DNA of 64,000 bases from Pandoraea faecigallinarum (lineage in GTDB: Bacteria; Pseudomonadota; Gammaproteobacteria; Burkholderiales; Burkholderiaceae), in contig NZ_CP011807.3 of assembly GCF_001029105.3 (NCBI RefSeq), positions 992,001 to 1,056,000 of the forward strand, given 5' to 3'. Positions 1,017 through 20,797 of this stretch are shown piece by piece; positions within the stretch are counted from its first letter, which is position 1, and every line of letters begins with the position of its first letter. The position numbers were made by a program, and so were the translations under genes. The notes under the pieces are model-generated. The model saw only the letters and a program-made list of their open reading frames with translations, was not told the DNA's origin and did not search any database.

Positions 1017-1032
1017 TTGGGGGTTCGCCCAT
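1017..1032. promoter_or_regulatory. Copy 1 of the shared 16-bp near-palindrome
   Basis: TTGGGGGTTCGCCCAT matches the right half and much of the left half of ATGGGCGCTCGCCCAT found at 5042. It lies 57 bases before the first possible start of the hydrolase gene at 1089. It is the most degenerate of four copies; the others are at 4826, 5042 and 20721. Confidence 0.4.
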
Positions 1033-1088
1033 TTTTAGGCGGGTTTCCATGTAGGAAACTGGATTGAATATGGTTTGGGCGCCCTCCT

Positions 1089-1928
1089 ATGTGCGGGCGG
1101 CCGATGCAGTCTCAATTCGTTTCTCATGGATCTGAAATGTCAATGCCCGGTGTACTCATGATTCACGGTCTAGGAGGTACGATTTCCGATTTCGGTCCGC
1201 TTCGCTCGTGCCTGGAAGCGGAGGGGTTTTGCGTGGAGACGGTGACTCTCCCAGGCCATGGAGGAAGTCCGGAAGATCTTCTGGGGATAAGCGTCGCGGA
1301 CTGGACGGATGCCGTGCGTCTTTCGTACCTGGCGATGAAGCAGCGGCACGACGTAGTTCATATCGTCGGCATGTGTATGGGCGCACTCCTCGCCGTCGAA
1401 GTGGTAAAAAGCGAAGGCCACCTATCCGGCGGCCTTGTTATGCTGGCTCCGCCGATGTTCGTCGACGGTTGGTCCTTGCCCTGGTACAAGGTGGTGAGGC
1501 ATCTTGCCTATCTCATACCCTCGCTAGCCCGTCGCATCAAGGTTCGCGAGTCCGCGCCGTACGGAGTCAAGAACGAGAAAATTCGATCGATCGTGCGTGC
1601 GAGACTTAAGCGAGGAGATGCCTTTCACTATAGCTGGATTCCGCTCAAGAGCTTGCGGGAGTTCGACTCACTCCGCGTAAGAGCGCGCAGAAATCTGCAC
1701 CAAGTGCGATGTAGCACGCTAGTTGTCCATGCGCGTTACGATGAACTGACGAGTCCCCGCTCCGCGGCGCTGCTTATGCGCAAGATCGGCCGGGGGCAGC
1801 AAGCATGCGACGTTCGTGTTGTACAGCTGGAAAACAGCTATCACATGATCTGCGTCGATAACGACCGGGATCACGTTGTCAACAGCGTCATCGAGTTCCT
1901 TTCGTCAATGTCGTCGGCCAGCAGTTGA
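1089..1928 (+). CDS. Alpha/beta-hydrolase (carboxylesterase/thioesterase-like) with Cys nucleophile
   Basis: This is a single-domain alpha/beta-hydrolase of about 280 residues. The oxyanion-hole motif HGLGGT follows the first strand (VLMIHGLGGT). The nucleophile elbow reads GMCMG, so Cys stands where most members have Ser. The acid is probably the Asp in ARYDELTSP and the base the His in NSYHMICVD near the C-terminus. It resembles carboxylesterase Est30 and monoacylglycerol-lipase-like proteins; Cys nucleophiles are known in dienelactone hydrolases. The start is uncertain: 1089, 1104 and 1137 are all in frame and none has a strong ribosome-binding site. Its 3' end overlaps the convergent acvB-like gene by 24 bases. 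The substrate is unknown; neighbouring lipid genes suggest an ester or lipid. Confidence 0.75.
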   Translation: MCGRPMQSQFVSHGSEMSMPGVLMIHGLGGTISDFGPLRSCLEAEGFCVETVTLPGHGGSPEDLLGISVADWTDAVRLSYLAMKQRHDVVHIVGMCMGALLAVEVVKSEGHLSGGLVMLAPPMFVDGWSLPWYKVVRHLAYLIPSLARRIKVRESAPYGVKNEKIRSIVRARLKRGDAFHYSWIPLKSLREFDSLRVRARRNLHQVRCSTLVVHARYDELTSPRSAALLMRKIGRGQQACDVRVVQLENSYHMICVDNDRDHVVNSVIEFLSSMSSASS

Positions 1929-3167
1929 GCGGCGATGAAACGACAGGATCTTTTGCTCGATCGCCCGATAGTTCCCGTCGAAGTGATGACCACCATCGGT
2001 CCTTACCACTTCTGCGAGCGTGTCGAGCAAAGATGGACACAGGGATTGTGATTCTTCCGCCCCATAGAAGCACTGAACGTTCTTGGTAGGCAACGTCGCT
2101 ATTTGTTCACGGACATTTTTTGCGAGCGCTTCCTGATGCAATCCGAGCCAGCCGGAGACTCGAATCTGAAAGTCGGCCGAAGGCTCCGGTGCCAGGAGAA
2201 CGAGTTGATCTACTTTAGCCTTCAGGCGATCCGGGAGGCGATTGTATGCGAATGGAAGCACATTCGCCCCGAACGAATAACCGATCAATGTTATTTTCGG
2301 CGTGTGCCACATGTTCGCGTAGTGATCCAGCACTTGTTTGAGCGCCCCCGCAGTCTGGTCGGGAGTCTTCTCAGTCCAGAAATACCGAAGGCTATCCCAA
2401 CCGACCACTGAAACGCCATCGCTTCTCAGGTGCTCGGAGATTTCTTTGTCGAGATCGCGCCATCCGCCATCGCCGGACATGACGACCGCGAGCCTACCCG
2501 ATGCCCCTGACGCCGGTAGCTCGATGAGCGGCAGTGTCGAGAAATTAGGCTGCGTAGCCTCATCAGCTCGCTCTGACGCGCGGCGGCGGATGGTGTCAAC
2601 GAACGCGCGGGTGTCGTCTGGTGGTAACCGGTCCACGAATTCCCGCCGTTCGAGGTTGACACCCGGGGCGGGGGCGTCGCATAGCGCAATAGGCAGTTGC
2701 GGCTCTGAACCTGTCGACGACACGACGGCGCCCTTGACCGTGTTCGCTGCAGCCTGATCGCGAATCACCTGAGCGATGCGTCCGCCGATGCCGAAGCCCG
2801 CGACGACGGGTGTGTGATAGATCGGTGTTGATAGGTCTCTTTGAAGTTGTTGGCTGACGAACTCGGCATCTCCGGGAAGATACTGGCAGTCGGCTTTTTC
2901 CTTGGACAAGTTTGCGAGATAGCGACGGCTATCGATGCCAACCGTCAGGATTCCGCGATCCGCCAGTTCCCTCGCGATGGCCCGATCTCGCTCGGTCCAA
3001 CCTTCGGCCGATGAAAACAGCAGAGTGACTCCTGCAACGGGGCCATCGACCGACGCGATACGCAGTTTTCCAAATCGCCCTCCGTCGATCTTGCTGGCTG
3101 CGGGCATGAGGGACAGGCCGACGGCCAGCAGGCCGGCAGCGACGGGAAACCAGTATCTGAACTTCAT
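1905..3167 (-). CDS. acvB: AcvB/VirJ-family periplasmic protein (likely aminoacyl-phospholipid hydrolase)
   Basis: The protein has 420 residues and an N-terminal signal segment (KFRYWFPVAAGLLAVGLSLMPAA). The C-terminal half is the VirJ domain, an alpha/beta-hydrolase fold with VVMSGDGGWRDLDKEI, the nucleophile elbow GYSFGAN and LLAPEPSADF. The N-terminal half is a degenerate copy of the same fold, as in full-length AcvB of Agrobacterium; VirJ itself is the short form. Agrobacterium AcvB is known to hydrolyse lysyl-phosphatidylglycerol. The start ATG overlaps the stop of the upstream synthase gene by four bases (3164-3167), so the two are translationally coupled. This matches the lpiA-acvB operon of Rhizobiales. 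Tuning of lysyl-PG level at the membrane is the likely role. Confidence 0.85.
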   Translation of the reverse strand: MKFRYWFPVAAGLLAVGLSLMPAASKIDGGRFGKLRIASVDGPVAGVTLLFSSAEGWTERDRAIARELADRGILTVGIDSRRYLANLSKEKADCQYLPGDAEFVSQQLQRDLSTPIYHTPVVAGFGIGGRIAQVIRDQAAANTVKGAVVSSTGSEPQLPIALCDAPAPGVNLERREFVDRLPPDDTRAFVDTIRRRASERADEATQPNFSTLPLIELPASGASGRLAVVMSGDGGWRDLDKEISEHLRSDGVSVVGWDSLRYFWTEKTPDQTAGALKQVLDHYANMWHTPKITLIGYSFGANVLPFAYNRLPDRLKAKVDQLVLLAPEPSADFQIRVSGWLGLHQEALAKNVREQIATLPTKNVQCFYGAEESQSLCPSLLDTLAEVVRTDGGHHFDGNYRAIEQKILSFHRRSTAGRRH

Positions 3168-4753
3168 GATCGTTTACCTGCGGTGAGGCCTGGAAGTGCA
3201 GCAAGTGCCTTGTATAGCCCGAGACGCCCGCTTGCCGCGAGATAGCGAGGCGTCCAGCGCGGCGAGAACTTTTCTTTAAACGAACGCAAGCCACGGAAGT
3301 TGTACGCACTGCCGCCATGGCGTGAAATGACGTATCCAATGCGGTTGCATGACGTCGATATCGACGATCGTTTGATCCCTGAGAACGGGGCGACGCCGAG
3401 GCTGAAGCGAGAGAATCCCGCAGCTTTCAGTTCGAGTGACAGATGAGTAAAGAGGTATTCCATCGTGCAGGCCGGCGCACTCGGGATGACACGCATGACC
3501 CCGGTCGTTGCCTCGCTGCCGTCGCTCGATGTCATGTATGTTGCGAAAGCCAGGGTGTCGCTCCCTCTACTTACGACAATCGCCGAGTGCCTTTTCACGA
3601 AGCTCTCGTCAAACGCCGCTATAGAAAAGCACCTCTCGGACGCCTTTCTGTGGTGCAGCCAGGCATTTGACGCTGCCCGCAATGACGGTAGAGCGCTCGA
3701 TATCTCGCCGGGCGACACCAACCGATAGGTCAACCCTTCTCGTTCCCCTCTCTTCAATGCATATCTGAGATGGGCTCTGCGGGCACCGCTGACAGAGAAC
3801 GTGTCCAGATCGAGCCACGCTTCCTCTCCGACTTTCATGAGTGCCAAACCCGCGTCTACATACATCTGGATCGACTCGGGGCGTACCTGATAGAACGCAG
3901 CGGTACCTGAATGCTCTTTCGCCAGTTCGATAAAGGCGTCAAGCAACGCGGGCCATTCATTGCGCGGGCCGACAGGGTCGTAAAGTGCCACCCAGGTCCT
4001 TCCGTACTTGGCATACGCGAGAAACGACGATCTCGACGCGGAGAATAGGAGACTCTTGTCGCCCATGAGCATGAGCCCGGCGTCGCTACGCGGAAATCGA
4101 TGGGCGATCAGCTGCGCGTCACGAATATCGTCCGCGCTTGGCGTGAGACCTCTGCCCGATGCTGGTCGAAGAAGACGCCACGCAGAGAATGTGAGGAGCA
4201 GCAATATGCTCGCCGACCGGGTGTCGGGTGCTTGTAAGCTCACCTGTGCCCGGGATACGTGCGTCAGAAGAAGCAGCCCGAACGGTGCAGATGTCGCAAG
4301 CGTGGCGAACGAGCGAAAAGCGAATCGCCTTGTGAGCGATCGGTGCGAGCGACGGAGCACAATCGTCAGGACAACCACTGCCGACGTCGATAGGCCTGGC
4401 GCGAGTAGGAGTGCCCACAGCGGAGCTCCGGCTTGGATAGCGGAGAACGAGGCGCATCCCGCGAGCGTCGCGCCCCAGTGGGACAGATCTCTTGCGCCGA
4501 GGGTAAGCAAGAAGACGAACGTGGTAAGAGGTGCAACCGCTAGCCACACCAAATCGCCATTAATCAGAATGTCCATCAGACCTTCGACGGCGGGCGACGA
4601 TGCTAGCGCATCGGAGATGACGGCAATTGCGGCGATCGCGCCGCACACAGGAGTCCCAATACGCGCGAGGACGTACCCGCTTGGTAGAGACAACCGCGAA
4701 AAAGAATATGACTTCGACTGCGATCTCAGTAGGTATTGAATAAACCAAGGCAT
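3164..4753 (-). CDS. lpiA: LpiA/MprF-type phosphatidylglycerol lysyltransferase, short form
   Basis: The C-terminal 330 residues are a DUF2156 (GNAT-like) aminoacyltransferase domain, with GDKSLLFSASRSSFLAYAKYG, the WVALYDPVGP motif, YALKRGEREG and FRGLRSFKEKFSPRW. Such enzymes move lysine from Lys-tRNA to phosphatidylglycerol and lower the net negative surface charge. The N-terminal part has only about four to five membrane segments, so the protein (529 residues from this start) is much shorter than the usual 840-870 and seems to lack most of the flippase domain. I chose ATG 4753 (MPWFIQYLL); the open frame extends to 5008 but that part looks non-coding and contains a candidate operator. No clear ribosome-binding site is seen. 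It is coupled to acvB downstream. Confidence 0.8.
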   Translation of the reverse strand: MPWFIQYLLRSQSKSYSFSRLSLPSGYVLARIGTPVCGAIAAIAVISDALASSPAVEGLMDILINGDLVWLAVAPLTTFVFLLTLGARDLSHWGATLAGCASFSAIQAGAPLWALLLAPGLSTSAVVVLTIVLRRSHRSLTRRFAFRSFATLATSAPFGLLLLTHVSRAQVSLQAPDTRSASILLLLTFSAWRLLRPASGRGLTPSADDIRDAQLIAHRFPRSDAGLMLMGDKSLLFSASRSSFLAYAKYGRTWVALYDPVGPRNEWPALLDAFIELAKEHSGTAAFYQVRPESIQMYVDAGLALMKVGEEAWLDLDTFSVSGARRAHLRYALKRGEREGLTYRLVSPGEISSALPSLRAASNAWLHHRKASERCFSIAAFDESFVKRHSAIVVSRGSDTLAFATYMTSSDGSEATTGVMRVIPSAPACTMEYLFTHLSLELKAAGFSRFSLGVAPFSGIKRSSISTSCNRIGYVISRHGGSAYNFRGLRSFKEKFSPRWTPRYLAASGRLGLYKALAALPGLTAGKRS

Positions 4754-4825
4754 GTTTCGTTTTCGGCTTGTCGCCGTTTTTGAAAACCTGATTCGCAGTT
4801 TGTTGCCGGAGGCGTGCCCTTGGGT

Positions 4826-4841
4826 ATGGGGGCTCGCCCAT
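4826..4841. promoter_or_regulatory. Copy 2 of the shared 16-bp near-palindrome (upstream of lpiA)
   Basis: ATGGGGGCTCGCCCAT differs from the 5042 copy by one base. Its near edge is 73 bases upstream of the chosen lpiA start, the distance expected of an operator or activator site. Confidence 0.5.
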
Positions 4842-5041
4842 ATTGCCGCCGGGGTCCATGCGTTCGGGGTCCAGCCTTTCCGGGGCCAGTCTGATAAGCG
4901 AGGTAGGTTTTTTAAAATTTTTTGAAAATTTTGCGGAATATTTTTCTGGGGTTGCCACTTATTGTTGTAGTGCGTAGCCACGTATTTCATAGTCTCTGAA
5001 GGGGGCATGTGATTCTGGTGGTGAGCTAACGAGGTGTTTTT

Positions 5042-5057
5042 ATGGGCGCTCGCCCAT
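5042..5057. promoter_or_regulatory. Copy 3 of the shared 16-bp near-palindrome (upstream of araC)
   Basis: ATGGGCGCTCGCCCAT is palindromic except for its two central positions. It lies in the lpiA/araC intergenic region, 229 bases before the AraC start, and could serve either promoter. Confidence 0.5.
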
Positions 5058-5285
5058 TCTTGATCGTGTTGGCCTGGGGCATCATCCGCCTCGCTGGTTC
5101 GCGAGTGGTGGCTGGCGGAATGGGCGAGGCAAAGGGAAGTGGATGGCGCTCGATGTCGATTCCGGTCACATGCAAATAGGCGAGAAAGCTAGAGCAAGCT
5201 TGGCCGCGAAAGCGCAGCGATTCTCAGGGCTGCCAATAGAACAAGAGGCGCGGTCTTATCAAAAAAATCGGGGTAAGGGGTTTAT

Positions 5286-6641
5286 GTGCAAGTGCAGACG
5301 AGAAATCAAAGAGTTCAGGCACATCGATTTCGCAGTGGTGATCCTTCTGTGGTTTCGGCGCACATCGAAAAGATGTATGCGCGTAATCAGTTCGTTGTGC
5401 ATGATGTCGAAAGTCGCAGTCCGACCAGTGTTGTCGGGTTTGATCTGGGCGGTGTTGGAGTCCATCTGTTCGATTGTCGCGTGCCATTCACGTTTTGCGC
5501 GTCAGGTGCAAGGACGAGGCATCTCCTGGTGTCAGGGGAAAGCGGCGCGCTCGCATACTCGGCACGTCGCCGAGCGCGGATTTGCTCGGCCGGAGATGTC
5601 ATGTCGCTGCCGTTGTTCGGTGATTTTTCGTGTATAGGCGGCGGAGGAGCTTCCGGCGTTGCGGTAACGATCAGCGCCGAGCGTGTCGATAGCTTCGTTG
5701 CTCGCTGGATAGGCGGTCATCTCGTCGAGTCGGTCAGTTTCGCATTCGAGCCGCTAGCGCGGGACGTTGCCGTGCAATGGAATCTGGCAACCAACTGTTT
5801 GCTGAAGATGATGAGACTGAAGCAGTTGCCGGAGCTCGCGGTGAAGTCGTTGATCGAGCACATAATTCGACTGCTTGTCACCGGGCACAGAAACAACTAC
5901 ACGCACCTGCTCGATCGTCCTCAGCATATCGAGGCGCAGGCGCGCGCCGCAATCGCGCTAATCCAGTCAGATCCGTTGGGCTGGCGAACGCTCTCGGCCG
6001 TGGCGCTGAAGCTCGGTTGTGCGACTGCGGCACTTGACAAGGGGATTCGACGCCTGGCGGGAAAGGGCTTCTCCGAACTTCACTACGAGGCGCGCCTGGA
6101 TGGTGTTCATCAGGCGTTGGCCAACGGTGAGGGGAAGGGGTTTGTGGGGACGTTGCGAGCCTTTGGATTTTCCATCTCCGAGCGGTTTGTGCTCGCGTAT
6201 AGCCGCCGATTCGGAGAGCCGCCCAGTTCGACTTATCGAAATAACCCTAACGCAGAGGGCGTTGCGACGCTCGTTGAGCGGCGCGAAGGCGGATTCAGCG
6301 AAGAGGTAATCAACAGGTTCATCGACGAGTCGATCAAAAAACCGATTTCGCTTGCGGATCTGGCGCGACTTGTCGGTATGAGCGAGCACGCGACGATCGC
6401 TGCATTCAAGTCCCAGTTTTCGAGGACACCAATTCAATACGTCATAGAGCGAAAACTGGACCGCGCTGGCGATATGTTGAGACGCGGGTCTGAAAGCATT
6501 CTCGCGATTGCGTTGGAGTGTGGCTTTGGAACACAAAGCTACTTGACGTCGAAGATGAAGCGGCACTGGGGTGTTACGCCCGGTCAGGTTCGTGCGGCAT
6601 CGAGGCAAAGCGATAGGGGAGGGGCGGTCGCTCTTCGGTAA
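5286..6641 (+). CDS. AraC-family regulator with two AraC-type DNA-binding domains
   Basis: The protein has 451 residues and a GTG start at 5286, supported by AAGGGG five bases upstream. Residues 1-205 look like an AraC-type sensor (cupin-like strands such as RHLLVSGESGALAYSA, then a helical linker). Residues 212-317 form a first, diverged double helix-turn-helix (LSAVALKLGCATAALDKGIRRLAGKGFSELHYEARL, ending in RAFGFSISERFVLAYSRRFG with P). Residues 340-436 form a second, canonical one (SLADLARLVGMSEHATIAAFK, ALECGFGTQSYLTSKMKRHWGVTPGQVR). Most family members have one such module of about 100 residues. It sits between lpiA-acvB and the pilus operon, so it probably controls one or both. Ligand and sites are unknown. 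Confidence 0.8.
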   Translation: MQVQTRNQRVQAHRFRSGDPSVVSAHIEKMYARNQFVVHDVESRSPTSVVGFDLGGVGVHLFDCRVPFTFCASGARTRHLLVSGESGALAYSARRRARICSAGDVMSLPLFGDFSCIGGGGASGVAVTISAERVDSFVARWIGGHLVESVSFAFEPLARDVAVQWNLATNCLLKMMRLKQLPELAVKSLIEHIIRLLVTGHRNNYTHLLDRPQHIEAQARAAIALIQSDPLGWRTLSAVALKLGCATAALDKGIRRLAGKGFSELHYEARLDGVHQALANGEGKGFVGTLRAFGFSISERFVLAYSRRFGEPPSSTYRNNPNAEGVATLVERREGGFSEEVINRFIDESIKKPISLADLARLVGMSEHATIAAFKSQFSRTPIQYVIERKLDRAGDMLRRGSESILAIALECGFGTQSYLTSKMKRHWGVTPGQVRAASRQSDRGGAVALR

Positions 6642-6801
6642 TTGGGCTGAGTCGGTGTCGGTGGTTTGTCGATTTATTTGAAGAATTTGCCGACAGATGT
6701 TCTGCGCTCTTGTTGTTATATTTGTTGCGGTGGGAAGTCGATAGAAATTCTTTGGTGTCCGAAGAATATTTTCGTTATTTATATGCTCAGGGATGATGAA
6801 T

Positions 6802-7371
6802 ATGGTGAGTCAGACGAGTAGTGTCGAGAATTTTCCCGTGAAGATCGGCGGTGGGGTTTTGAAAGATCAATCCGGCTTTACGCTGATTGAGGCGCTGGTG
6901 GTCATGGTGGTCGGTGTGGCGGTCTTGGCCGGCGCCGCTGCGGGGATTGGTCGGCTATTTGCGGCAAGTAACGTCTCCACCGAGGCGCAAAATATTACGC
7001 TAATTGCCGCAAATATCCAAAGCATGAAAGACGGACCTCAGGGCTACAAGGCCCTTAGCATGGCGACAGCGAAGGCGTTCAATGTTATTCCCGGGAATAT
7101 GACGGTTTCTGGCGACGACAAGTCGCCGGTCGTCACAAATGTCTGGAATGGCACGGTCACGTTCGCGCCGGTCTCAGGTGACAAGTCTTTCGATATCACA
7201 TATGAGGGGGTCCCGGCTGAAGCGTGCAACCAACTTGCCTTGAAGCTTAAAGGCGGCGGCTGGGAAGCCATGCAGGCCGGAAGTGCTTCTATCAAGGCAG
7301 AATCGAGTTTAGCTGATATCGATAAGGCATGTAAGGCGGCGGGCGGCAAGATGGTCTTTCGGTCGCGCTAA
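6802..7371 (+). CDS. pilS: Type IVb major prepilin PilS
   Basis: A long 25-residue leader ends in QSG, followed by the class III signal FTLIEALVVMVVGVAVLAG with Phe at +1 and Glu at +5, the hallmark of a type IV prepilin. A leader of this length marks it as type IVb, like R64 PilS, TcpA and BfpA. The C-terminal region has two Cys (EACNQ and DKACKAAGG) placed to form the usual disulphide-bounded D-region. ATG codons occur at 6793, 6796 and 6802; AGGG at 6789-6792 favours 6802. The gene stands first in the pilus operon, directly before its own processing peptidase, as suits a highly expressed subunit. Confidence 0.88.
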   Translation: MVSQTSSVENFPVKIGGGVLKDQSGFTLIEALVVMVVGVAVLAGAAAGIGRLFAASNVSTEAQNITLIAANIQSMKDGPQGYKALSMATAKAFNVIPGNMTVSGDDKSPVVTNVWNGTVTFAPVSGDKSFDITYEGVPAEACNQLALKLKGGGWEAMQAGSASIKAESSLADIDKACKAAGGKMVFRSR

Positions 7372-7448
7372 GTGAGTCTTGGTTCGTAGCTCGATCTTTT
7401 GGCCGCGGAGATGAATGGCATGAATGTTATATAAACCAAACATTTCGA

Positions 7449-8258
7449 ATGACTAATGAATTGACTGCCGGGTTGATTGGGCTGGTTGTTGGGAGTTTCG
7501 TCAATGTGGTCGTTTTTCGCCTTCCCGATCTGTTGCGTGTCGAGGTTCAAAGTGTTTGGGCGGTGCTCAAGGGGCTTTCTTTTCCGGGGTCCTCGTGCCC
7601 GTGTTGTGCGAAGCGACTGGTGTGGTGGGAGAACGTGCCTGTAGTGAGTTACGTGATCCTCCACGGGAAGTGTAGGACCTGTGGGTATGCAATCCCGATC
7701 CGGTATGTCGGGATCGAGCTTCTGGTGTGCCTTGAGTACCTAGCGTTGGCGATTATTGGGCAGTGGAGCGTCTTTCCGATCTTTCTGATCACGACGCTCA
7801 CGATCCTGGCCTTCCTCGATCTCGAACATCGCCTGCTGCCGGATTTATTGACGCTTCCGTTGCTCGCTGTTGGGATTCTGGGGGCTGCGTTAAGTGAGAG
7901 CCGGTCGATAGCCGGTGCTTGCGCGGCCGCCGCACTGGCATTCGGGTATTTCTTTCTTGTTTGCTTTGCAAGCAAGCGGATTGCCGGCCGCGACGCGCTT
8001 GGCGGGGGTGACGCAAAGCTTGCCGCCGCGCTTGGCGCCTGGTTTGGAGTAGCTGGTGTCGGAATGATCGTGTTTCTGTCGGGAATCATATCGTTGGTCA
8101 TTGCGTTAGCGCGCAGAGCCGATGGCAAAGAAGGCGTCGGCGAGAAATTTCCGTTTGGGACGGCGCTTTGTGCTGTTGCTGTAGGCGAATTCTTCCTTTC
8201 TGCGTCGTTGCGTGATGTTGGATCGTTGTGGCCTGCGTTGACGGGAAGCGTGTTTTGA
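7449..8258 (+). CDS. pilU: Prepilin peptidase/N-methyltransferase (A24), PilU/PilD-like
   Basis: The protein is a 269-residue polytopic membrane enzyme. The N-terminal region carries the tetracysteine site of the methyltransferase-type cytoplasmic domain (CPCC at 50-53 and CRTC further on). The two catalytic aspartates are in FLDLEHRLLPD and in GGGDAKLAAALG, the peptidase motif. The GSFVNVVVFRLP motif follows the first membrane segment. It cleaves the PilS and PilV leaders at Gly-Phe and may methylate the new N-terminus. A dedicated peptidase inside the cluster is the R64/TCP pattern and makes the system independent of the core PilD. Confidence 0.88.
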   Translation: MTNELTAGLIGLVVGSFVNVVVFRLPDLLRVEVQSVWAVLKGLSFPGSSCPCCAKRLVWWENVPVVSYVILHGKCRTCGYAIPIRYVGIELLVCLEYLALAIIGQWSVFPIFLITTLTILAFLDLEHRLLPDLLTLPLLAVGILGAALSESRSIAGACAAAALAFGYFFLVCFASKRIAGRDALGGGDAKLAAALGAWFGVAGVGMIVFLSGIISLVIALARRADGKEGVGEKFPFGTALCAVAVGEFFLSASLRDVGSLWPALTGSVF

Positions 8259-8325
8259 TCCTCTGCGATGTTGTTCACACGCGCGCGGACGTTGGGGTTT
8301 CGCTGCAGCTTTAGAGGATGCCGGC

Positions 8326-8883
8326 ATGTATGCATTGGCAATTGCGATGCTGATAATTCAGGTCATCTCGTTCGAGGTTTACCAGGTTTGGTATTTCCAA
8401 TACACCTCGGAATTTTCGAGGAAAGAAGGGCTCAACGATCTGGCCTCGTTTGCCGGGGCAATCCGCGCCGTCTCGGACGAGCTTTGCACAAAGGTCGAGC
8501 GGCGTAGCCCAGGAGGGTACGAAGTGACGCGGAGCAACGTCGATAAAGGACTGACGAAGACATCGCAGCTTTGGGTGGAGCATGCGGGATGGTGCGATTC
8601 GAACGACAAGAGCGCATGCCTTTGGGGGGCAATCGTCAAAGGAAACACGCTTTGGACCTATCGCCTACCTCGCTACAAATCACCGGACAAGCAGTACGCT
8701 GAACTGATCAATCGCGGTCGGCGTGAAGCTTTCTTTGTGTCATGGTTGTCGGAAAAAGGATTCGGCGTCGGCGTTTGGCCTCTCCCCCAATCCTCGATGC
8801 CCGATTTTTGGCGCGATGTGCCGGAGCAACGCATACCTAATGGTTCGATTGTGCGCTACGAAACGATATGTGTAGAAAAATAA
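8326..8883 (+). CDS. pilM: PilM-like pilus biogenesis protein
   Basis: The protein has 185 residues with a single N-terminal hydrophobic anchor (YALAIAMLIIQVISF) and a presumably periplasmic domain with Cys residues (ELCTKVERR, WCDSNDKSACLW). Size, anchor and position just before the TcpQ-type gene fit PilM of R64-type type IVb clusters, but the match is by context more than by motifs. AGAGGA at 8313-8318 supports the ATG at 8326. Its stop overlaps the next start (TAATG), indicating coupling. Confidence 0.55.
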   Translation: MYALAIAMLIIQVISFEVYQVWYFQYTSEFSRKEGLNDLASFAGAIRAVSDELCTKVERRSPGGYEVTRSNVDKGLTKTSQLWVEHAGWCDSNDKSACLWGAIVKGNTLWTYRLPRYKSPDKQYAELINRGRREAFFVSWLSEKGFGVGVWPLPQSSMPDFWRDVPEQRIPNGSIVRYETICVEK

Positions 8884-9518
8884 TGAACCGCGTTGCGACG
8901 CTTTTCGTGTTCGGTTACTGCGTTGTGCCGTTGTCGTCTGGTGCGCAGGGCCGGGTGGCCAATGGTCCCGTCATCTCGTCTCCCTTGATGAGCGCCGCGT
9001 CTTCGTGGGGTGAGCAAAAGGTCGAACGTGTTGGCACTGGGCAGATTCCTCCTGCTCAGGACGTTGTGTCCACCGCGCGCGAGGCGTTGCCTAGCGAGGG
9101 GAATGCGGATGTTTCTGTATCCCACATCACAATGTCGTCGTCTGATGCGCCCGTTCCAATGGAACGTGGGGGCATGGTTCGTGAAAACGAAGCGCTAAAC
9201 GGAAGAATGACCGGCGATACACCTGCTCATTCGCTGTCCTCCGCCGAAGTGGCGACTTCGAAGTGGGAAGTCCTGCAAGGCGCGTCGTTGCAAGACGGCT
9301 TGAAACGCTGGGCCGATGCCATGGGTTACGAGCTTGTGTGGGACGCACCTTACGATTTTCCGATTCGCGCCAGTCTGGTGTTCGACGGCGATTTCGTCGC
9401 AGCAGTAACGAAGCTCTTCGACGCGTATCGGGACGCGGGACGACCTTTGCAGGTCGATATATATAAGGAGCAACGTCTGGTGCGTGTGTTCCCTCAGGAC
9501 GATGTGGCCTATGAATAA
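8883..9518 (+). CDS. pilL: PilL/TcpQ-type secretin partner protein
   Basis: The protein begins with a signal peptide (MNRVATLFVFGYCVVPLSSGA). A low-complexity linker of about 100 residues follows. The C-terminal 75 residues, starting at KWEVLQGASLQDGLKRWA and ending with YKEQRLVRVFPQD, match the TcpQ domain, which supports stability or localisation of the secretin in TCP and R64 systems. ATG 8883 is chosen because it overlaps the preceding stop. R64 PilL is longer, with a lipoprotein N-terminus, so this is a shortened or cholera-like form. It overlaps pilN by eight bases. Confidence 0.75.
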   Translation: MNRVATLFVFGYCVVPLSSGAQGRVANGPVISSPLMSAASSWGEQKVERVGTGQIPPAQDVVSTAREALPSEGNADVSVSHITMSSSDAPVPMERGGMVRENEALNGRMTGDTPAHSLSSAEVATSKWEVLQGASLQDGLKRWADAMGYELVWDAPYDFPIRASLVFDGDFVAAVTKLFDAYRDAGRPLQVDIYKEQRLVRVFPQDDVAYE

Positions 9519-11169: not shown

Positions 11170-11179
11170 TGAGAAGCCA

Positions 11180-12472: not shown

Positions 12473-12980
12473 TGTCGTTTTTCTCGCCAGTGCGATTCTG
12501 GCTGCTACTACCTGTCACGCAGACGAACAGGCGCTTCCGGGGGACAACGGGAAGGCCGGCGTGGAGCGGACGAATGCGTCGGGATTTGTCGACCGCCTCG
12601 GACGACTGCAGACGGAGGTGGTGTTGCTCAAGGCAGAGGCCGCGCGGGCTCAGGCGCAGCTCAGCCTGGAACAGGCGCGGGCACCGCTTGACGCTAACAG
12701 GCGCCAGGGGGTGGCCGCGATCACCAGCATTTACGGTCGTGATCAGAATCTTTATGCAGTGGCCCAGTTTAAGGATGGCCGCACGCAAACAGTGAGAGCT
12801 GGCGACCACCTGTCGAACGGATACGTTGTGAAACGGGTGTCGATTTCGTCCGTGACGCTCGTGAGGAAAGGCGACGAGATTCATATCGACCTCGCCCCTG
12901 TACGTCCGCCGAGCCTCGTGTATGGCAATGCGGGGGGCGCGCTGGATACGCCTCCGCTCCCGGATCGCATGTATCGATGA
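12456..12980 (+). CDS. pilP: Type IVb pilus periplasmic protein PilP
   Basis: The protein has 174 residues with a signal peptide (MQQQLNVVFLASAILAATTCHA). A short coiled coil follows (residues around 45-80, EVVLLKAEAARAQAQLSLEQA), then a compact beta domain (ITSIYGRDQNLYAVAQF, GDHLSNGYVVKRVSISSVTL) typical of PilP/GspC-like proteins that connect platform and secretin. ATG 12456 has GGAGGG at 12442-12447 and lies inside the end of pilO. The stop overlaps the pilQ start by four bases. Confidence 0.78.
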   Translation: MQQQLNVVFLASAILAATTCHADEQALPGDNGKAGVERTNASGFVDRLGRLQTEVVLLKAEAARAQAQLSLEQARAPLDANRRQGVAAITSIYGRDQNLYAVAQFKDGRTQTVRAGDHLSNGYVVKRVSISSVTLVRKGDEIHIDLAPVRPPSLVYGNAGGALDTPPLPDRMYR

Positions 12981-14518
12981 GCAAGATGACCTACGAGGAC
13001 ATTCTCGAACTGGTCCGGTCCGGGGCGCAAGTTCTGTCCGACAGCGCGGATGCGCTCGGCGTTGACGTCGAAAATCGTTCGCTGATGTGTTGCATTAAAG
13101 TGCAGGCCAAGGTGGCCGTCCTTGTGGTGTCAGCATCGCACGTGCTTGAGCCGCATGTGCTTTCCTACCAGGAGACACTCCGACGAAGAGGGTATACGTT
13201 CTCTCGCATCCAATGTTCGATGCAGGAAATACAGGAGTTGTACCGCGTTTCCCGGCGCGATCTCGACGCGGAGGCGGGCAACGAGACGGAGTGGCAATCC
13301 CGAGTCGTCCGGCTAATCGAGAAAGGGGCGGGATTGCGAGCCTCTGACGTGCACATTACGGTGCGGCGTGACCATTGTGACGTGAGGTGCCGCATCAACG
13401 GGGAACTTGTTCTACTGGAGCAACTGCGTCCTGCCGACGGGCTTCGTGTGTGCGCGACCATCTACCAGAGCATGTGCGACGTTGCCGAGCCGACATTCAA
13501 GCCGCATCAAGCGCAGCGCGCACGCATGAAGGAGGAGTTCCTCTCGGAATGCGGGCTGAATGGTGCACGCGTCAATACCCGGCCATTGGTACGTGGAATG
13601 CTCATGGTCATCCGTTTGTTGTACGCCGACAGCGGAAGATCCAGCAAGTCGCTTGGCGATCTTGGGTACTTTCCCGAGCAGCAGGCGATGCTCAAAAGCA
13701 TGACGCGTCTACGTTCCGGCATTGTCCTGTTCTCGGGAGCAACAGGGAGCGGGAAAAGTACGACATTGAAGGTCGTTCTCGAAGAGAGCATTAAAGCGCG
13801 TCCGACGGACCACATTCTCACACTCGAAGATCCTCCCGAATATGAAATCGGCGGAGCTAACCAGTCTCCCGTGATGGGCGACCGTGGCGACGCCAAGGAC
13901 GAGGAACATGTTTGGGCCATGGCAATTTCCGATGCGATGCGTCTGGATCCGGATGTGATCATGATCGGGGAAGTTCGCGATGCCATTACCGCCAAGATGG
14001 CAATTAGAGCCGCCATGACAGGGCACTTCGTGTGGACAACGATTCACGCCAACGACGCGCTTGCCACGCTGTCCCGGCTGGAGGACGAAGGCACGCCGAA
14101 GACACTTCTTACCGATCACAAGCTGATCGTCGGCCTTGTTAATCAGTCGCTGGTTCAGGTCCTCTGCGACCAATGCAAGATCCCCCTGATTGGGAACGAA
14201 CATTGCCTTGATGCAGAAACGCTAGAGCGCGTCCGCAGATTCTGCGTCGAGCGGGGTGTGTTCTTGCAGGGGCCCGGCTGTGGCGGCTGCGATCACACCG
14301 GTGTAGCGGGGCGGACAGTCGTTGCTGAGATCATAAGGACCTCTGCTGGCCTGATGCAGGCGTTCGGATCGGGGCATCACTATCAGGCCCTGCAGTACTG
14401 GTTGGAGCAAATGGATGGCATGAGCAAAATGCGCTCGTTAATACGCAAGATCGACGCGGGACACGTCGATCCGCGCGCCGGCGAGCGCGTTCTAGGCCCT
14501 CTTGCTGACGACTGCTAA
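12977..14518 (+). CDS. pilQ: Pilus assembly ATPase PilQ (GspE/PilB superfamily)
   Basis: The protein has 513 residues. Walker A is GATGSGKS (254-261), Walker B-like DPDVIMIGEVRD (324-335) and a His box GHFVWTTIHAND follows. A zinc-type CxxC pair occurs at CDQC and again at GPGCGGC, as in extension motors of the GspE class. The N-terminal domain has an ASDVHIT motif common to this family. It hydrolyses ATP at the inner face of the cytoplasmic membrane to drive pilin polymerisation, working on PilR. It is coupled to pilP upstream and overlaps the pilR open frame. Confidence 0.9.
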   Translation: MSKMTYEDILELVRSGAQVLSDSADALGVDVENRSLMCCIKVQAKVAVLVVSASHVLEPHVLSYQETLRRRGYTFSRIQCSMQEIQELYRVSRRDLDAEAGNETEWQSRVVRLIEKGAGLRASDVHITVRRDHCDVRCRINGELVLLEQLRPADGLRVCATIYQSMCDVAEPTFKPHQAQRARMKEEFLSECGLNGARVNTRPLVRGMLMVIRLLYADSGRSSKSLGDLGYFPEQQAMLKSMTRLRSGIVLFSGATGSGKSTTLKVVLEESIKARPTDHILTLEDPPEYEIGGANQSPVMGDRGDAKDEEHVWAMAISDAMRLDPDVIMIGEVRDAITAKMAIRAAMTGHFVWTTIHANDALATLSRLEDEGTPKTLLTDHKLIVGLVNQSLVQVLCDQCKIPLIGNEHCLDAETLERVRRFCVERGVFLQGPGCGGCDHTGVAGRTVVAEIIRTSAGLMQAFGSGHHYQALQYWLEQMDGMSKMRSLIRKIDAGHVDPRAGERVLGPLADDC

Positions 14519-14528
14519 TCGCGAGCTT

Positions 14529-15617
14529 ATGAATACTAACAGCCTGATCGCATCGTTGAATCTATGGTTCGCCAAGACCCAGTTTGGCACGAGTTCTCGC
14601 ATTGAATTTTACGAGACGCTTGCCCTGATGCTGGAGAATCGCGTGCTCGTCGCAGAGGCACTATCGGAGATGTGCGCGGTTGCGAGTCGCAACGGAAAGA
14701 ACATGAATCAGCCAATGGCGATCATCATGAATGACTGCCTGGAGTCGATCAATCAGGGTGCTTCCCTCGCAGATGCCCTCGGTCCGTGGGTCGATTCGAA
14801 CGAAGTTGGGGTTTTGGCCGCAGGCGAGCGCTCGGGCGATCTGTCGCGCGCTGTCTATGACGTCATCGCCCTGCTTAAGGCGCAGCAGCGAATCATGGCG
14901 GCTGTGGTGGGCGCTTCGATGTATCCCCTGGTGCTGCTGGCCATGCTGGCGATGCTTTTGCATATTGTCGCGACCAGCCTTGTGCCGAAACTGTCGTCGG
15001 TATCGAAGCCGGAGACGTGGGAGGGGCCGGCATATCTACTGTATTTGATCTCGAATTTCGTCAACTCATACGGTACTACCGTGGTGGTGTCGCTTGTCAT
15101 GATCGTGGTCTTAATTTGGATATCGTTGCCGAGACTGGGTGGCGGTATTCGAGTTGCGCTCGATGGAGTACCTCCCTGGTCCATTTACAGGGACATTCAC
15201 GGTGCGATTTTCATGCTTAACGTCTCGCTTCTGATCGGTTCGGGGCTGATGTTGCAGCAAGCGCTTGAACTGCTAAGGGATCGTGCTGCTTCGTCGTGGC
15301 TGCGCGTTCGAATCGAAGCAACGCTGGAGCGTATCGCGGCCGGTCGTGATCTGGGCCAAGCCTTGGAAGATTCCAATCTTAACTTCCCGAGCGCACGCGC
15401 TATTTCCTATCTGAAACTATTTTCGAAGCGTTCCGGTTTCGACGCCTCGATGTCGAACTTCGCCAAGAAGTGGCTGGACAAGACGATTGACGGCGTTCAA
15501 GGGGCCTCGAAGATTTTCTTGTTAGCCACAATTATCTTGATGGGTGGAATGTTGACGCTGGTGGTCGGAGCGGTTTCCAGTATAGAAAGCGCAATCGAGC
15601 AATCGACCGTTCAGTAA
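14529..15617 (+). CDS. pilR: Inner-membrane platform protein PilR (GspF/PilC family)
   Basis: The protein has 362 residues with two T2SSF repeats. The first has EFYETLALMLENRVLVAEAL and ALGPWVDSNEVGVLAAGERSGDL; the second has FMLNVSLLIGSGLMLQQALELL. Three to four membrane segments lie around MYPLVLLAMLAMLLHIV, GTTVVVSLVMIVVLIWI and the C-terminal IFLLATIILMGGMLTLVVG. It anchors the PilQ hexamer and the minor pilins. ATG 14529 is preferred over the TTG-type start at 14502 because the latter overlaps pilQ with no homology. Confidence 0.87.
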   Translation: MNTNSLIASLNLWFAKTQFGTSSRIEFYETLALMLENRVLVAEALSEMCAVASRNGKNMNQPMAIIMNDCLESINQGASLADALGPWVDSNEVGVLAAGERSGDLSRAVYDVIALLKAQQRIMAAVVGASMYPLVLLAMLAMLLHIVATSLVPKLSSVSKPETWEGPAYLLYLISNFVNSYGTTVVVSLVMIVVLIWISLPRLGGGIRVALDGVPPWSIYRDIHGAIFMLNVSLLIGSGLMLQQALELLRDRAASSWLRVRIEATLERIAAGRDLGQALEDSNLNFPSARAISYLKLFSKRSGFDASMSNFAKKWLDKTIDGVQGASKIFLLATIILMGGMLTLVVGAVSSIESAIEQSTVQ

Positions 15618-15637
15618 TTTCCAATTTGCACCGACTT

Positions 15638-16732
15638 ATGAAAAATCCGGTACACGGCACGCCGCGCGGCGATAGCGTCGCACTTGGTGGGCTTTCGGAA
15701 AGCGGGAGGGCTCTAGTTTCCCGGCTCCTGAGTAACCCACAGGTGATGGAGGTCATGCGTAACGCAGATGGAACGGTGTGGGTTGAATCGGCCGATAAGG
15801 GCATGCATCTCACCAACGAGTCGATTTCAGAGCAGGATGCTATTGGAATATTGCGTGCGAGCATGAATCCTTCGACTTCGGGCCGCGAGATTCCGGACAC
15901 CCGGAATCTCATCGAAGGGGTTTTGGGCGAACAGCGCGCCCGTGTCGTTGGTCTTCTTCCGCCGATTTCGACCAGCCCCGTTTTTGCGATCCGGAAGCAT
16001 GCTCGCGCGATGTTCTCGTTGGACGACTATCGAGATATGGGAATCATAGATTCCCTCCGAAGTAATTTTGTTGCCGATCGCAATACCGATGAGTTGGCAG
16101 AAATGAGTTTCGAACATCCCGTTGACGCCATCAAGTATTTGGTTCGTGAGCGAAAGAATATTCTTATTGTGGGGCCTGCCGGCAGCGGAAAGACAACATT
16201 GGCAAACACTCTGCTCAACGAAATTGCAGAGCAGACCCCAGGCAATCGCCTCATTATCCTCGAAGACGCTGCCGAACTTCAGACGCGAATACCTAATAAA
16301 GTTGCACTGACGACTTCGCTCGATATTGATATGCGAGCGCTGCTTCGCATTACGATGAGATTGCGCCCGGACCGAATCATCATCGGAGAGATACGTGGTT
16401 GGGAAGCCTACACGCTACTGAAGGGATGGACATCGGGCCATCCCGGCGGCGTCGCGACGCTGCACGCAAGTGATTCTCAGGAAGCGTTGTCCAAACTATC
16501 CCACTACATCTTCGAAGAACCCGCAGCACAGTGTTTTACATCCGAATCCATAGGCTGGATGATTTCTCAGGCCGTTGATGTTGTGATGGTGATCGGAAAG
16601 TCAAACAACTCGGCGGGGCGACGCGTCAAAGAGATATGCGAAGTCAGAAACTACATGAATGGCAGGTTCAACTTCAACATTTTGCGATATCAGCCCAATA
16701 CCGGTGCCTACGCGTTCAAGAGTCATATGTGA
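15638..16732 (+). CDS. VirB11/TrbB-type secretion ATPase in the pilus operon
   Basis: The protein has 364 residues. Walker A is GPAGSGKT (179-186). The acidic box is RLIILEDAAELQ, Walker B is RPDRIIIGEIRG (243-254) and the His box is GHPGGVATLHA. The GHPGG-type His box and the ELQ motif are typical of VirB11/TrbB conjugation ATPases, not of the GspE motor encoded just upstream. It has no zinc tetracysteine motif. The N-terminal domain (about 1-160) fits the VirB11 N-domain. Position between pilR and pilT suggests a second motor of this pilus, perhaps for retraction or hand-over, but that is inference. ATG 15638 is chosen; a TTG at 15626 is in frame. Confidence 0.85.
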   Translation: MKNPVHGTPRGDSVALGGLSESGRALVSRLLSNPQVMEVMRNADGTVWVESADKGMHLTNESISEQDAIGILRASMNPSTSGREIPDTRNLIEGVLGEQRARVVGLLPPISTSPVFAIRKHARAMFSLDDYRDMGIIDSLRSNFVADRNTDELAEMSFEHPVDAIKYLVRERKNILIVGPAGSGKTTLANTLLNEIAEQTPGNRLIILEDAAELQTRIPNKVALTTSLDIDMRALLRITMRLRPDRIIIGEIRGWEAYTLLKGWTSGHPGGVATLHASDSQEALSKLSHYIFEEPAAQCFTSESIGWMISQAVDVVMVIGKSNNSAGRRVKEICEVRNYMNGRFNFNILRYQPNTGAYAFKSHM

Positions 16733-16779
16733 AGCGACGCATGAACGGTTGACCTTGGGACGCCGGTCGTCTGATCAAG

Positions 16780-17325
16780 ATGGACATGAATGTGCTTCTT
16801 TCTCACGCAAGAGCTCTTCTCGCTGCCTCGTTGCTTTGGTTGGTTGCGCCTCAGGCGGTACTTGGGCAGAACAGTGCGAAGGCAAGCGAGCCCGCAGAGC
16901 CCTTCAAAGGTGCTCCGGATCCCGATGAGCGATTCAGATGCTCCGTGATTGCCGCATATGAGTTTGCGCTTCCTGTGGACGTAATGCTGGCAGTTGCAGA
17001 GCAGGAGGGAGGTGCCATAGGCCAATGGAAGAAAAATAGGAACGGTACCTATGACATTGGCGTGATGCAGTTCAACACCCAATACCTGAAAGAGCTGTCG
17101 AGATTCGGCGTCTCGGCCGCAGATGTTTCCGGGCCTGGCTGCTATCCGTATCGATTGGCCGCATGGAGAATTCGCCGCCATATTTCTCTCGATGACGGAG
17201 ATGTGTGGGAGCGGATTGCGAACTATCACTCCCGGACCCCGGCACTAAATATGAAGTACAGGGTGGCGATCATGTCACGGAGCGCCAAGTGGGCGCAGAG
17301 ATTGATCGGGATGGGAATATTTTGA
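16780..17325 (+). CDS. pilT: PilT-type lytic transglycosylase
   Basis: The protein has 181 residues with a signal peptide (ARALLAASLLWLVAPQAVLG). The SLT catalytic glutamate is in VAEQEGG and the GVMQFN motif follows, matching the ELNIG/GLMQ pattern of goose-lysozyme-like transglycosylases such as R64 PilT, BfpH and VirB1. The conserved region ends with RIANYHSRTPALNMKYR. It locally opens peptidoglycan for the pilus machine. This PilT is not the retraction ATPase of type IVa pili that shares the name. Confidence 0.85.
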   Translation: MDMNVLLSHARALLAASLLWLVAPQAVLGQNSAKASEPAEPFKGAPDPDERFRCSVIAAYEFALPVDVMLAVAEQEGGAIGQWKKNRNGTYDIGVMQFNTQYLKELSRFGVSAADVSGPGCYPYRLAAWRIRRHISLDDGDVWERIANYHSRTPALNMKYRVAIMSRSAKWAQRLIGMGIF

Positions 17326-17357
17326 ACGAACTGGCGAGAGCCAGGCGTGCGGGGGTT

Positions 17358-18659: not shown

Positions 18660-18714
18660 TGCTCGGTGAGTTGTGATTGCGCCTTCCCGGTTTGAGTCCC
18701 CGCCCTATTTTCCT

Positions 18715-18968
18715 TGATCCGCTTGGGTTTTCTGTGCCAAATCCGGAGCGAGTTTTTCGGCGTATGATCCGCTTGGGTTTTCTGTGCCAAATCCGGAGCG
18801 AGTTTTTCGGCGTATTGATCCGCTTGGGTTTTCTGTGCCAAATCCGGAGCGAGTTTTTCGGCGTATTGATCCGCTTGGGTTTTCTGTGCCAAATCCGGAG
18901 CGAGTTTTTCGGCGTATTGATCCGCTTGGGTTTTCTGTGCCAAATCCGGAGCGAGTTTTTCGGCGTAT
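18715..18968. repeat. Five tandem copies of a 51-bp IS terminal segment
   Basis: Units begin with TGATCCGC at 18715, 18765, 18816, 18867 and 18918, giving periods of 50, 51, 51 and 51 bases. They are otherwise essentially identical. Each unit ends in AGTTTTTCGGCGTAT. The last unit coincides with the left end of the IS3-type element next to it, and both the tip and the inner AGTTTTTCGGC motif recur inverted at that element's right end. The array is therefore best read as multiplied copies of the IS end. Confidence 0.8.
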
Positions 18969-18972
18969 CGGG

Positions 18973-19815: not shown

Positions 19816-20075
19816 TTTTTTGAAGCAACATCCTGCAGAATGGCCTTGTCCAGGCTTAGCTCGGCCACTAGCTTCTTGAGCCGTGCGTTCTCGTCTTGCA
19901 ACTGTTTGAGCTCACGTACCTGATCTGACTGCATACCGGCGTATTGCTTCTTCCAGCGATAAAACGTCTGCTCCGAAATACCGACGTGACGGATGAGATC
20001 GGCCACCGGCATACCCAACTCGGCCTGCTTCAGTACCGCCACGATCTGCTCGACTGAAAAGCGCTTACGTTTCAT
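19797..20075 (-). CDS. IS3-family transposase OrfA
   Basis: The 92-residue helix-turn-helix protein (MKRKRFSVEQIVAVLKQAE, then LIRHVGISEQTFYRWKKQYAG) ends in a leucine-zipper segment (LKQLQDENARLKKLVAELSLDKAIL). It binds the IS ends and is fused to OrfB by frameshifting at the A6G run. Confidence 0.9.
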   Translation of the reverse strand: MKRKRFSVEQIVAVLKQAELGMPVADLIRHVGISEQTFYRWKKQYAGMQSDQVRELKQLQDENARLKKLVAELSLDKAILQDVASKKWPGPR

Positions 20076-20164
20076 AGCAAACTCCTCCTTTTTCCAAGGG
20101 GAAAGTTTGCCGAAAAACTAACGTCCTAGGTGGTCCAGTTTTCTCATTGCAGATCAGGCGGCCT

Positions 20165-20514
20165 TTAGACTTTTTTTCGCACCACCTCTTGCAGGATCTG
20201 CTTATCGAGCGTCAGGTCGGCGACGATACGCCGCAGGCGTGCGTTCTCGTCTTCGAGTTGCTTGAGCTTGCGCATCTCGCTAATGCCGAAATCGGCGTAC
20301 TTCTTCTTCCACGTGTAGAAGGTTGCCTCCGACACGCCAAGCTGCCGACAAACGTCGACCACCGGCGTGCCGCTCTCGGCCAGTCGCAGTGCAAAGGCGA
20401 TCTGCTCTTCGGAAAATCTCGAGCGTTTCATGGCGACTCCTCGCCCCGTTTGGGGCGCCGAGAAGCAACTTTACCTCTAGTTTTGACCTGTACCGATATT
20501 CCGGGGACACGTCA
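20165..20514 (-). mobile_element. Truncated second IS3-family element carrying only OrfA
   Basis: OrfA (20165-20431, 88 residues, MKRSRFSEEQIAFALRLAE to LQEVVRKKV) is intact. Its OrfB is missing: the neighbouring IS3 element begins nine bases further on. The stretch upstream of OrfA, up to a possible tip at 20514 (TGACGTGTCCCCGG on the minus strand), looks like the element's own right end. Its OrfA differs clearly from that of the neighbour, so the two are different IS types. Confidence 0.7.
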
Positions 20515-20797
20515 GTGGACTATTCGCGTGGTGACGCTATTGCAGCCGCTTACCCATGCGTCGACCGGCACGGCGCAGATTTGAGCAATGCGCAGCGTTT
20601 CCGGAGCCGGGGAATAGGCGTGTTCTGGATAGCGATGAGAAACCTGACAATTGGAGTCTAAGTTTCGCGGTAAAGCAACTTAGGATACGGACGAAGCCAT
20701 TGAGACCATCCTGCAATAAAATGGGCGATCACCCATTCGAAAAAGCTAACTACGCAAGCATTCTGCATGTCGTTCTCAACGATAGGTCTTTTCGATC
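20515..20797. other. Upstream region of the autotransporter gene
   Basis: No gene is supported here. The stretch becomes AT-richer near 20690-20790 and carries the shared near-palindrome at 20721-20736, so it probably holds the autotransporter promoter. Confidence 0.4.
20721..20736. promoter_or_regulatory. Copy 4 of the shared 16-bp near-palindrome (upstream of autotransporter)
   Basis: ATGGGCGATCACCCAT matches the 5042 copy at 14 of 16 positions. It ends 61 bases before the autotransporter ATG, a spacing close to that in front of lpiA (73). Confidence 0.5.

Follow-up and report, generated by a model that had tools for sequence, protein, structure and literature searches.

The window analysed here, a 64,000-nucleotide stretch of Pandoraea faecigallinarum (contig NZ_CP011807.3, positions 992,001 to 1,056,000 of the forward strand), contains four copies of a 16-bp palindrome, at positions 1017, 4826, 5042 and 20721. 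An earlier note on this DNA had placed the four sequences at exactly these positions, and we found each of them there, outside called genes. Operator 1 (TTGGGGGTTCGCCCAT, 1017..1032, plus strand) lies before the gene for an alpha/beta hydrolase (1089..1928, plus strand; Pfam PF12697). Operator 2 (4826..4841, minus strand) reads ATGGGCGAGCCCCCAT toward the gene for an lpiA-like lysyl-phosphatidylglycerol synthase (3164..4753, minus strand; PF09924), beyond which lies the gene for an acvB/virJ-like lysyl-phosphatidylglycerol hydrolase (1905..3167, minus strand; PF06057, VirJ) with relatives annotated as AcvB/VirJ and adjoining mprF in Mycetohabitans. Operator 3 (ATGGGCGCTCGCCCAT, 5042..5057, plus strand) stands 228 bases before the GTG at 5286 that opens the gene for an AraC-family protein (araC, 5286..6641, plus strand; two HTH_18 stretches, alignment A1). 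This gene is followed by type IVb pilus genes (6793..17325, plus strand) encoding a PilS pilin, a prepilin peptidase, a PilN secretin and a PilQ-type ATPase. Operator 4 (ATGGGCGATCACCCAT, 20721..20736, plus strand) precedes the gene for an autotransporter with repeated passenger units (20798..23554, plus strand; PF03797).

From sequence comparison, we consider it highly probable that the palindrome, WTGGG-N6-CCCAT, is the operator of an RcsB-like response regulator (RR) that is encoded nearby and paired with a hybrid histidine kinase. Computation showed local confinement of the motif, its co-occurrence with one RR subfamily in other genera and a fixed promoter geometry. The exact pattern TGGGNGNTCNCCCA occurs at four places in the 5.73-Mb genome, all of them in this window and within 20 kb (2+1 for a reversed-pattern control). 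With its centre opened, the pattern (TGGGNGNNCNCCCA) was found at nine places in the genome, namely the four sites and five places within open reading frames (ORFs). Within the window, ATGGGCGCTCGCCCAT had seven matches at up to three mismatches, corresponding to four places, compared with a mean of 1.30 and a maximum of 5 in 100 dinucleotide shuffles. Across the 2,359 bp that lie between genes in the first 24 kb, the motif had three further places at up to three mismatches, a number that was matched by any 16-mer in 0 of 200 dinucleotide shuffles. The motif was also not common intergenically elsewhere in the genome among the near matches that were fetched, a check that the earlier note had proposed. 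These comprised 41 loci besides the four sites, 39 of which look coding and two of which are unclear; some are the same place twice, one (L015) is a coding near-match at window 50,665, and most of the 130 genome matches within three mismatches lie outside this fetched set.

Conservation among the four sites is limited to the 16 bp, and the flanking DNA fails to align. Positions 1, 6, 8 and 11 of the 16-mer vary, 6 and 11 forming a dyad pair whose bases are non-complementary in three of the four sites (G-G, C-A). The constraint on the motif therefore looks like that of a dimer on DNA rather than that of an RNA hairpin. The claim that all four sites are intergenic held with respect to called genes. 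Site 4826, however, falls within an N-terminal extension of the lpiA ORF, which is open to 5008 (3164-5008); for the site to be non-coding, lpiA must start near 4753, a start that we infer. Likewise, the spacings of 57-73 bases given for three of the sites agree with the start codons as listed (56, 72 and 61 bases lie between site and start), but a hydrolase start at ATG 1137 is possible and would put operator 1 at 104 bases. The best relative of the hydrolase aligns from residue 15-16, and others align from residue 2, 12, 14 or 21.

The candidate owner is a NarL-family RR encoded at C1:987757-988401, ending 3.6 kb before the window and so lying outside the DNA that the earlier note covered. 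The gene for a hybrid histidine kinase follows it (C1:988409-991768) and ends 232 bp before the window and 1.25 kb before operator 1. The RR combines a REC domain with a LuxR/GerE helix-turn-helix (HTH), and its best structural-database match is RcsB (5vxn, E 1.4e-31). This lead arose from a position weight matrix (PWM) scan of 87 loci, in which the best matches outside the own genome lay at loci of RR relatives (L156, 21.9; L155, 16.9); new flanks and named records were fetched afterwards. We compared 20 RR loci, each at most 20 kb long, 12 with RRs at 52-56% identity, two at 45-46% and six at 37-40%, the six distant controls being hand-picked from a long list. Intergenic matches to TGGGN6CCCA numbered 12, 1 and 0 in these groups (4, 0 and 0 in coding DNA). 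The 12 matches fell in 7 of the 12 close loci, within 29 kb of intergenic DNA, and nine matches in 5 of 10 loci were left when the two discovery loci (L241 and L242) were set aside. The permuted patterns GGGTN6ACCC, CCCAN6TGGG and TCCCN6GGGA gave 0 intergenic matches in the same 12 loci (1, 1 and 2 coding), and CCCAN6TGGG gave one in the six distant-RR loci. Thirty-five other loci had 0 intergenic TGGGN6CCCA in 53 kb and two in coding DNA. In these counts, the match at L242 18312 is entered as coding because an ORF of 84 aa was called there, and the row for the window itself stands at three intergenic and one coding (4826, in the lpiA ORF extension). Across the 12 RR genomes, TTGGGN6CCCAT had 74 matches versus 34 for the reversed pattern; 22 of these are no farther than 35 kb from the RR versus 0.76 expected if evenly spread, and 14 are no farther than 10 kb versus 0.22.

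Among 10 genes tested behind the sites in relatives, six are fimbrial subunits (PF00419) and four are VipA/TssB proteins (PF05591) of the type VI secretion system (T6SS), and in G089 a site precedes the kinase gene by 44 bp. RR-linked sites are present on two of three named plasmids. The Paraburkholderia sprentiae plasmid carries, in this order, RR, site, fimbrial operon, DotU, OmpA, site, tssB, tssC and hcp, with the sites approximately 107 bp upstream of the fimbrial gene and 109 bp upstream of tssB; on the Xanthomonas sacchari plasmid the order is site, RR, kinase, site and EAL. Conservation of the motif follows the regulator, at promoters other than lpiA. The earlier note had named a lack of conservation at the same promoters in relatives as grounds for refutation, and at lpiA such conservation was not found: 20 stretches upstream of acvB relatives reached a best PWM score of 9.4 (shuffled mean 7.6), which left no conservation at lpiA/acvB promoters. 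Relatives of the hydrolase were tried as well, and their loci L147 and L148, which belong to the set of 35 loci, have no intergenic site.

The operators of relatives keep a nearly constant distance from the genes that they precede. Gaps between operator and start codon were 104, 110, 108, 106, 109, 108, 102, 110, 111, 126, 106, 107 and 109 bp; 12 of these 13 fall at 102-111 bp, and the outlier of 126 becomes 111 with an alternative ORF start. We then scored likeness to a -10 element at each exact offset, counted from the operator's first base, using frequencies that approximate the E. coli consensus. The mean score peaked at +38 for fimA (eight promoters, 3.09), for tssB (eight, 4.18) and for the window's four sites (0.88), and the next-best offsets had mean scores below zero. 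Allowing +38 or +39, with lpiA at +39, raised the mean for the window's four to 2.91; this choice was made after an earlier look at the scores, and fimA and tssB give +38 independently. Read toward the gene, the putative -10 hexamers are GAAACT for the hydrolase (1055..1060, plus strand, +38), CAAACT for lpiA (4797..4802, minus strand, +39), CATCAT for araC (5080..5085, plus strand, +38) and CATTCT for the autotransporter (20759..20764, plus strand, +38), with scores of 2.6, 3.4, 3.3 and 2.3. The same four operators read away from the gene scored -4.4, -5.5, -7.1 and -8.8. A score of 2.0 was reached by 1 of 82 null placements, and the shuffle test for the window's four gave 1 of 5000. CATCAT also occupies the +38 offset in five of the eight fimA promoters from relatives. 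An operator centred near -43 occupies the position of a class II activator, and a transcription start near +50 would centre the operators here near -43, where they would replace the -35 element.

All 15 RRs that are at least 44% identical (the own RR and 14 at 44.6-56%) carry K-T-[IV]-S-N-Q-K, in which Lys is kept and Asn takes the place of RcsB Ser184. In the six RRs at 37-40% identity this place is held by His, Thr or Ala, and these six loci of RRs at 40% identity or less, which differ in this recognition-helix residue, have no intergenic site. RcsB contacts bases through Lys180 and Ser184 (PMC5829831), and the RcsAB box has the consensus TaAGaatatTCcta, that is, TRRG-N6-CYYA over 14 bp (PMC4325325). 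The motif described here, TGGG-N6-CCCA over 14 bp, matches this dyad geometry, and its half-site TTGGGCG has T, T, G and G in common with the RcsB half-site TTAGGAA (PMC5829831). However, the A/T-rich half-site of the TAAGAAT/TTAGGAA type is not found here, where the sites are of the TTGGGC type with a C/G-rich centre, and by half-site sequence the motif is not an RcsAB box. The RR also differs from RcsB in having Asn for the base-contacting Ser184, and its predicted regulon consists of surface and envelope genes. A changed recognition helix beside a changed half-site would make the specificity of the RcsB family directly testable.

Three characterized systems resemble the proposed arrangement. 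PvrSR/RcsCB, which controls CupD fimbriae and belongs to the PAPI-1 island of P. aeruginosa PA14 (PMC3842833), is likened by description: it also has an island-borne RcsB-like RR with hybrid kinase(s), a promoter site and an EAL protein, and it activates an appendage, as is predicted here. By contrast, its site is RcsAB-box-like and requires a GAA triplet, and its targets differ. In the Burkholderia pseudomallei group, T6SS genes and the autotransporter gene bimA both require VirAG, whose genes virG and virA adjoin tssB and whose cascade includes BprC, a regulator of the AraC type (PMC6335564, PMC3795662). The likeness of VirAG to the system proposed here is in the kind of target set, and the searched parts of PMC3795662 contain 0 occurrences of 'palindrom', 'inverted repeat' or 'binding site'. 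CblRST of the cable pili of Burkholderia cenocepacia, in which two hybrid kinases and one RR control a pilus cluster (PMC3842833), is alike, by description, in the control of a pilus cluster by kinase and RR.

Several observations weigh against the assignment to the RR. Five of the 12 close-RR loci (L236 and L244-L247) have no intergenic site within 20 kb, and G104, G145 and G261 have no TTGGGN6CCCAT within 35 kb of the RR. In G366 and G261, sites before tssB or fimA lie farther from the RR, and three site-less close-RR genomes remain. Only one of the two loci with RRs at 45% has a site, and the plasmid RR of Burkholderia savannae (45.8%) has none within 20 kb (in 40 kb). The promoter of the own RR and kinase has no site, and TTGGGN6CCCAT occurs at seven further places in the own genome; of the two looked at, L275 is in a called ORF and L288 is intergenic. 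As for promoter geometry, seven other sites (kinase, EAL, RR and dispersed) have no -10-like hexamer at +38, better hexamers are present elsewhere for the hydrolase (TATGGT, +52) and the autotransporter (GAAAAT, +82), and the window's gaps to the start codon (56 or 104, 72, 228 and 61) differ from the 102-111 bp of relatives.

The earlier note had named the AraC protein at 5286 as a possible owner. One site does lie 228 bp before its gene and another in the same divergent stretch, and two HTH_18 stretches in the protein could suit such a role. However, 12 loci of AraC relatives, which are part of the 35-locus set, have 0 intergenic TGGGN6CCCA, whereas the 12 loci of close relatives of the linked RR have 12. 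Matches to the AraC protein at E<=1e-30 are present in 10 of 398 family genomes, the best at 47% identity, and searches with AraC of plasmids and viral contigs and of genome contigs gave no match. Sites of AraC-family proteins are asymmetric as a rule, and the motif here is palindromic. We regard ownership by AraC as unlikely, and the protein fits better as one of the operator's targets. A second neighbour is a 184-aa protein with two HTH stretches (HTH184, 458-1012; no Pfam or NCBIfam match), whose stop codon is 4 bases before operator 1 and whose family is found in Pandoraea alone (4 of 398 family genomes, own included). It is a still weaker candidate, as the loci of its relatives (L210-L213) have no site near the gene, the one PWM match (13.1) lying at the edge of L213, and its own gene is preceded by a different, perfect 14-bp palindrome (CGCGAAATTTCGCG, 391-404). 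A scan of genome contigs with an HTH184 ortholog returned two spurious Bacteroidota matches.

An element acting as RNA, that is, as a hairpin, a terminator or the start of a leader peptide (ATG/TTG-GGN-GNT-CNC-CCA, M-G-x-[RH]-P), would fit the fact that sites 4826 and 5042 both give MGARP, with GAGG 7 bases before the second. Against this, the variation at positions 6 and 11 does not preserve pairing, the third base is invariant in three of four codons while second bases vary, none of the four sites is among terminator-like matches (a G+C-rich stem and a T run), and in relatives the genes that follow the motif, at a constant distance and with a constant spacing to the -10, are unrelated to one another. 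We give this explanation very little weight, and equally little to a chance recurrence that was noticed through close reading of the window. Part of the statistics is indeed unremarkable: TGGGNGNTCNCCCA with two mismatches has 20 matches in the window compared with 19.68 expected, which is not significant; genome-wide, one mismatch yields background only (79 matches versus 62 for the control); and the recurrence test over all 10,596 intergenic bp of the window was not significant, as a different 16-mer reached 4 (4 in 14 of 40 null sets) and palindromic seeds reached 3 (3 in 8 of 40). However, the exact pattern is confined to 20 kb of the genome, and the motif recurs independently beside the RR in other genera.

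Assignment to the linked RR, which the evidence above favours, suggests a mechanism. A phosphorelay would pass from the hybrid kinase to the RR, which, once activated, would bind as a dimer over the -35 region, with the operator centred near -43, and recruit RNA polymerase, leading to activation rather than repression. It would thereby switch on the hydrolase, lpiA-acvB, araC and autotransporter genes. The shared operator that the earlier note proposed, here tying these four into a local regulon, is well supported. AraC, itself a probable target of the operator, probably acts as a second-tier regulator and may in turn drive the type IVb pilus genes downstream of it, for which the window motif scan found no operator of their own. 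One sensor may in this way switch surface and envelope genes together.

We also lean, with less confidence, toward a broader reading. An RcsB-like RR subfamily of Burkholderiaceae and Xanthomonas, with Asn at the Ser184 position, may recognize TTGGG-N6-CCCAT, a recoded RcsAB box whose class-II position is invariant, and serve as a portable switch for surface remodelling. In some lineages one regulator-operator pair would control chaperone-usher fimbriae, T6SS and its own kinase; in the Pandoraea island the same pair would govern lysyl-phosphatidylglycerol turnover, an autotransporter and a relay from AraC to type IVb pili. If true, a short operator would allow sequence-based prediction of the regulon for an RcsB-like two-component family that is uncharacterised, fimbriae and T6SS expression would be linked in Burkholderiaceae, and an island regulator would have been rewired to genes for membrane-lipid charge, an adhesin and a pilus. 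Literature searches found no report of the operator, sequence motifs being hard to find that way.

Beyond the linked sites, a recurrent form, TTGGGC[CT]GTCGCCCAT, is dispersed in G116 (C1, C5, C11 and C22), G383 (C11, C23 and C43) and G392 (C1 and C3). At L265 and L267, copies stand 80-81 bp before genes whose products have similar N termini, MS(L/R)S(I/L)FEMHSVELFCQRPLGACYVICDE; these dispersed copies are perhaps T6SS-linked modules. Xanthomonas sacchari has an EAL-domain gene together with the RR and kinase (L290 21426-26166), and another lies 3.7 kb before the RR in the own genome (L052 10360-12096), which by analogy suggests a cyclic di-GMP branch as in PvrR.

Upstream of the window (L052), the order is a second AraC paralog, the EAL protein, a PBP, the RR and the hybrid kinase. 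Third-position GC is mostly 0.53-0.69 in genes of the first 26.5 kb and often 0.7-0.9 beyond, with two transposase ORFs as exceptions; the low values are as in an acquired island. The AraC protein (5286-6641) belongs to a family with two tandem AraC-type HTH stretches (alignment A1); the own genome encodes a further member at C1:981192-982289, and G030 and G017 encode three and two members, respectively. Protein orthologs are 80-88% identical for AraC, 84-97% for HTH184 (one in Pandoraea sp. CB10b_02) and 71-81% for the RR, the 71% one being in Pandoraea sp. SD6-2. The orthologs P0002 (HTH184, 84%) and P0004 (AraC, 88%) come from contigs 7,838 and 7,840 bases long; should these represent one stretch in sister assemblies, as is possible, HTH184-araC synteny would exist elsewhere.

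Two further sequences lie close to the operators. A half-site, ATGGGCGAG, is present in the araC leader at 5120-5128, 62 bases downstream of operator 3. A perfect inverted repeat, TTTCCATGTAGGAAA (1044..1058), overlaps the putative -10 of the hydrolase; this is its sole 0-mismatch place in the window, and its half-sites are presumably of the BvgA/RcsB type (inverted heptads). An early idea that the RcsB-like RR is blind to ATGGGCG and prefers TTTCCATGTAGGAAA was dropped when scans of the relatives' loci overturned it. At the end of the pilus genes, by an IS3-type transposase, we found a tandem repeat (approximately 18700-18970) with a unit of about 51 bp containing GTGCCAAATCCGG, which we take to recall the shufflon recombination sites of R64 pilV.

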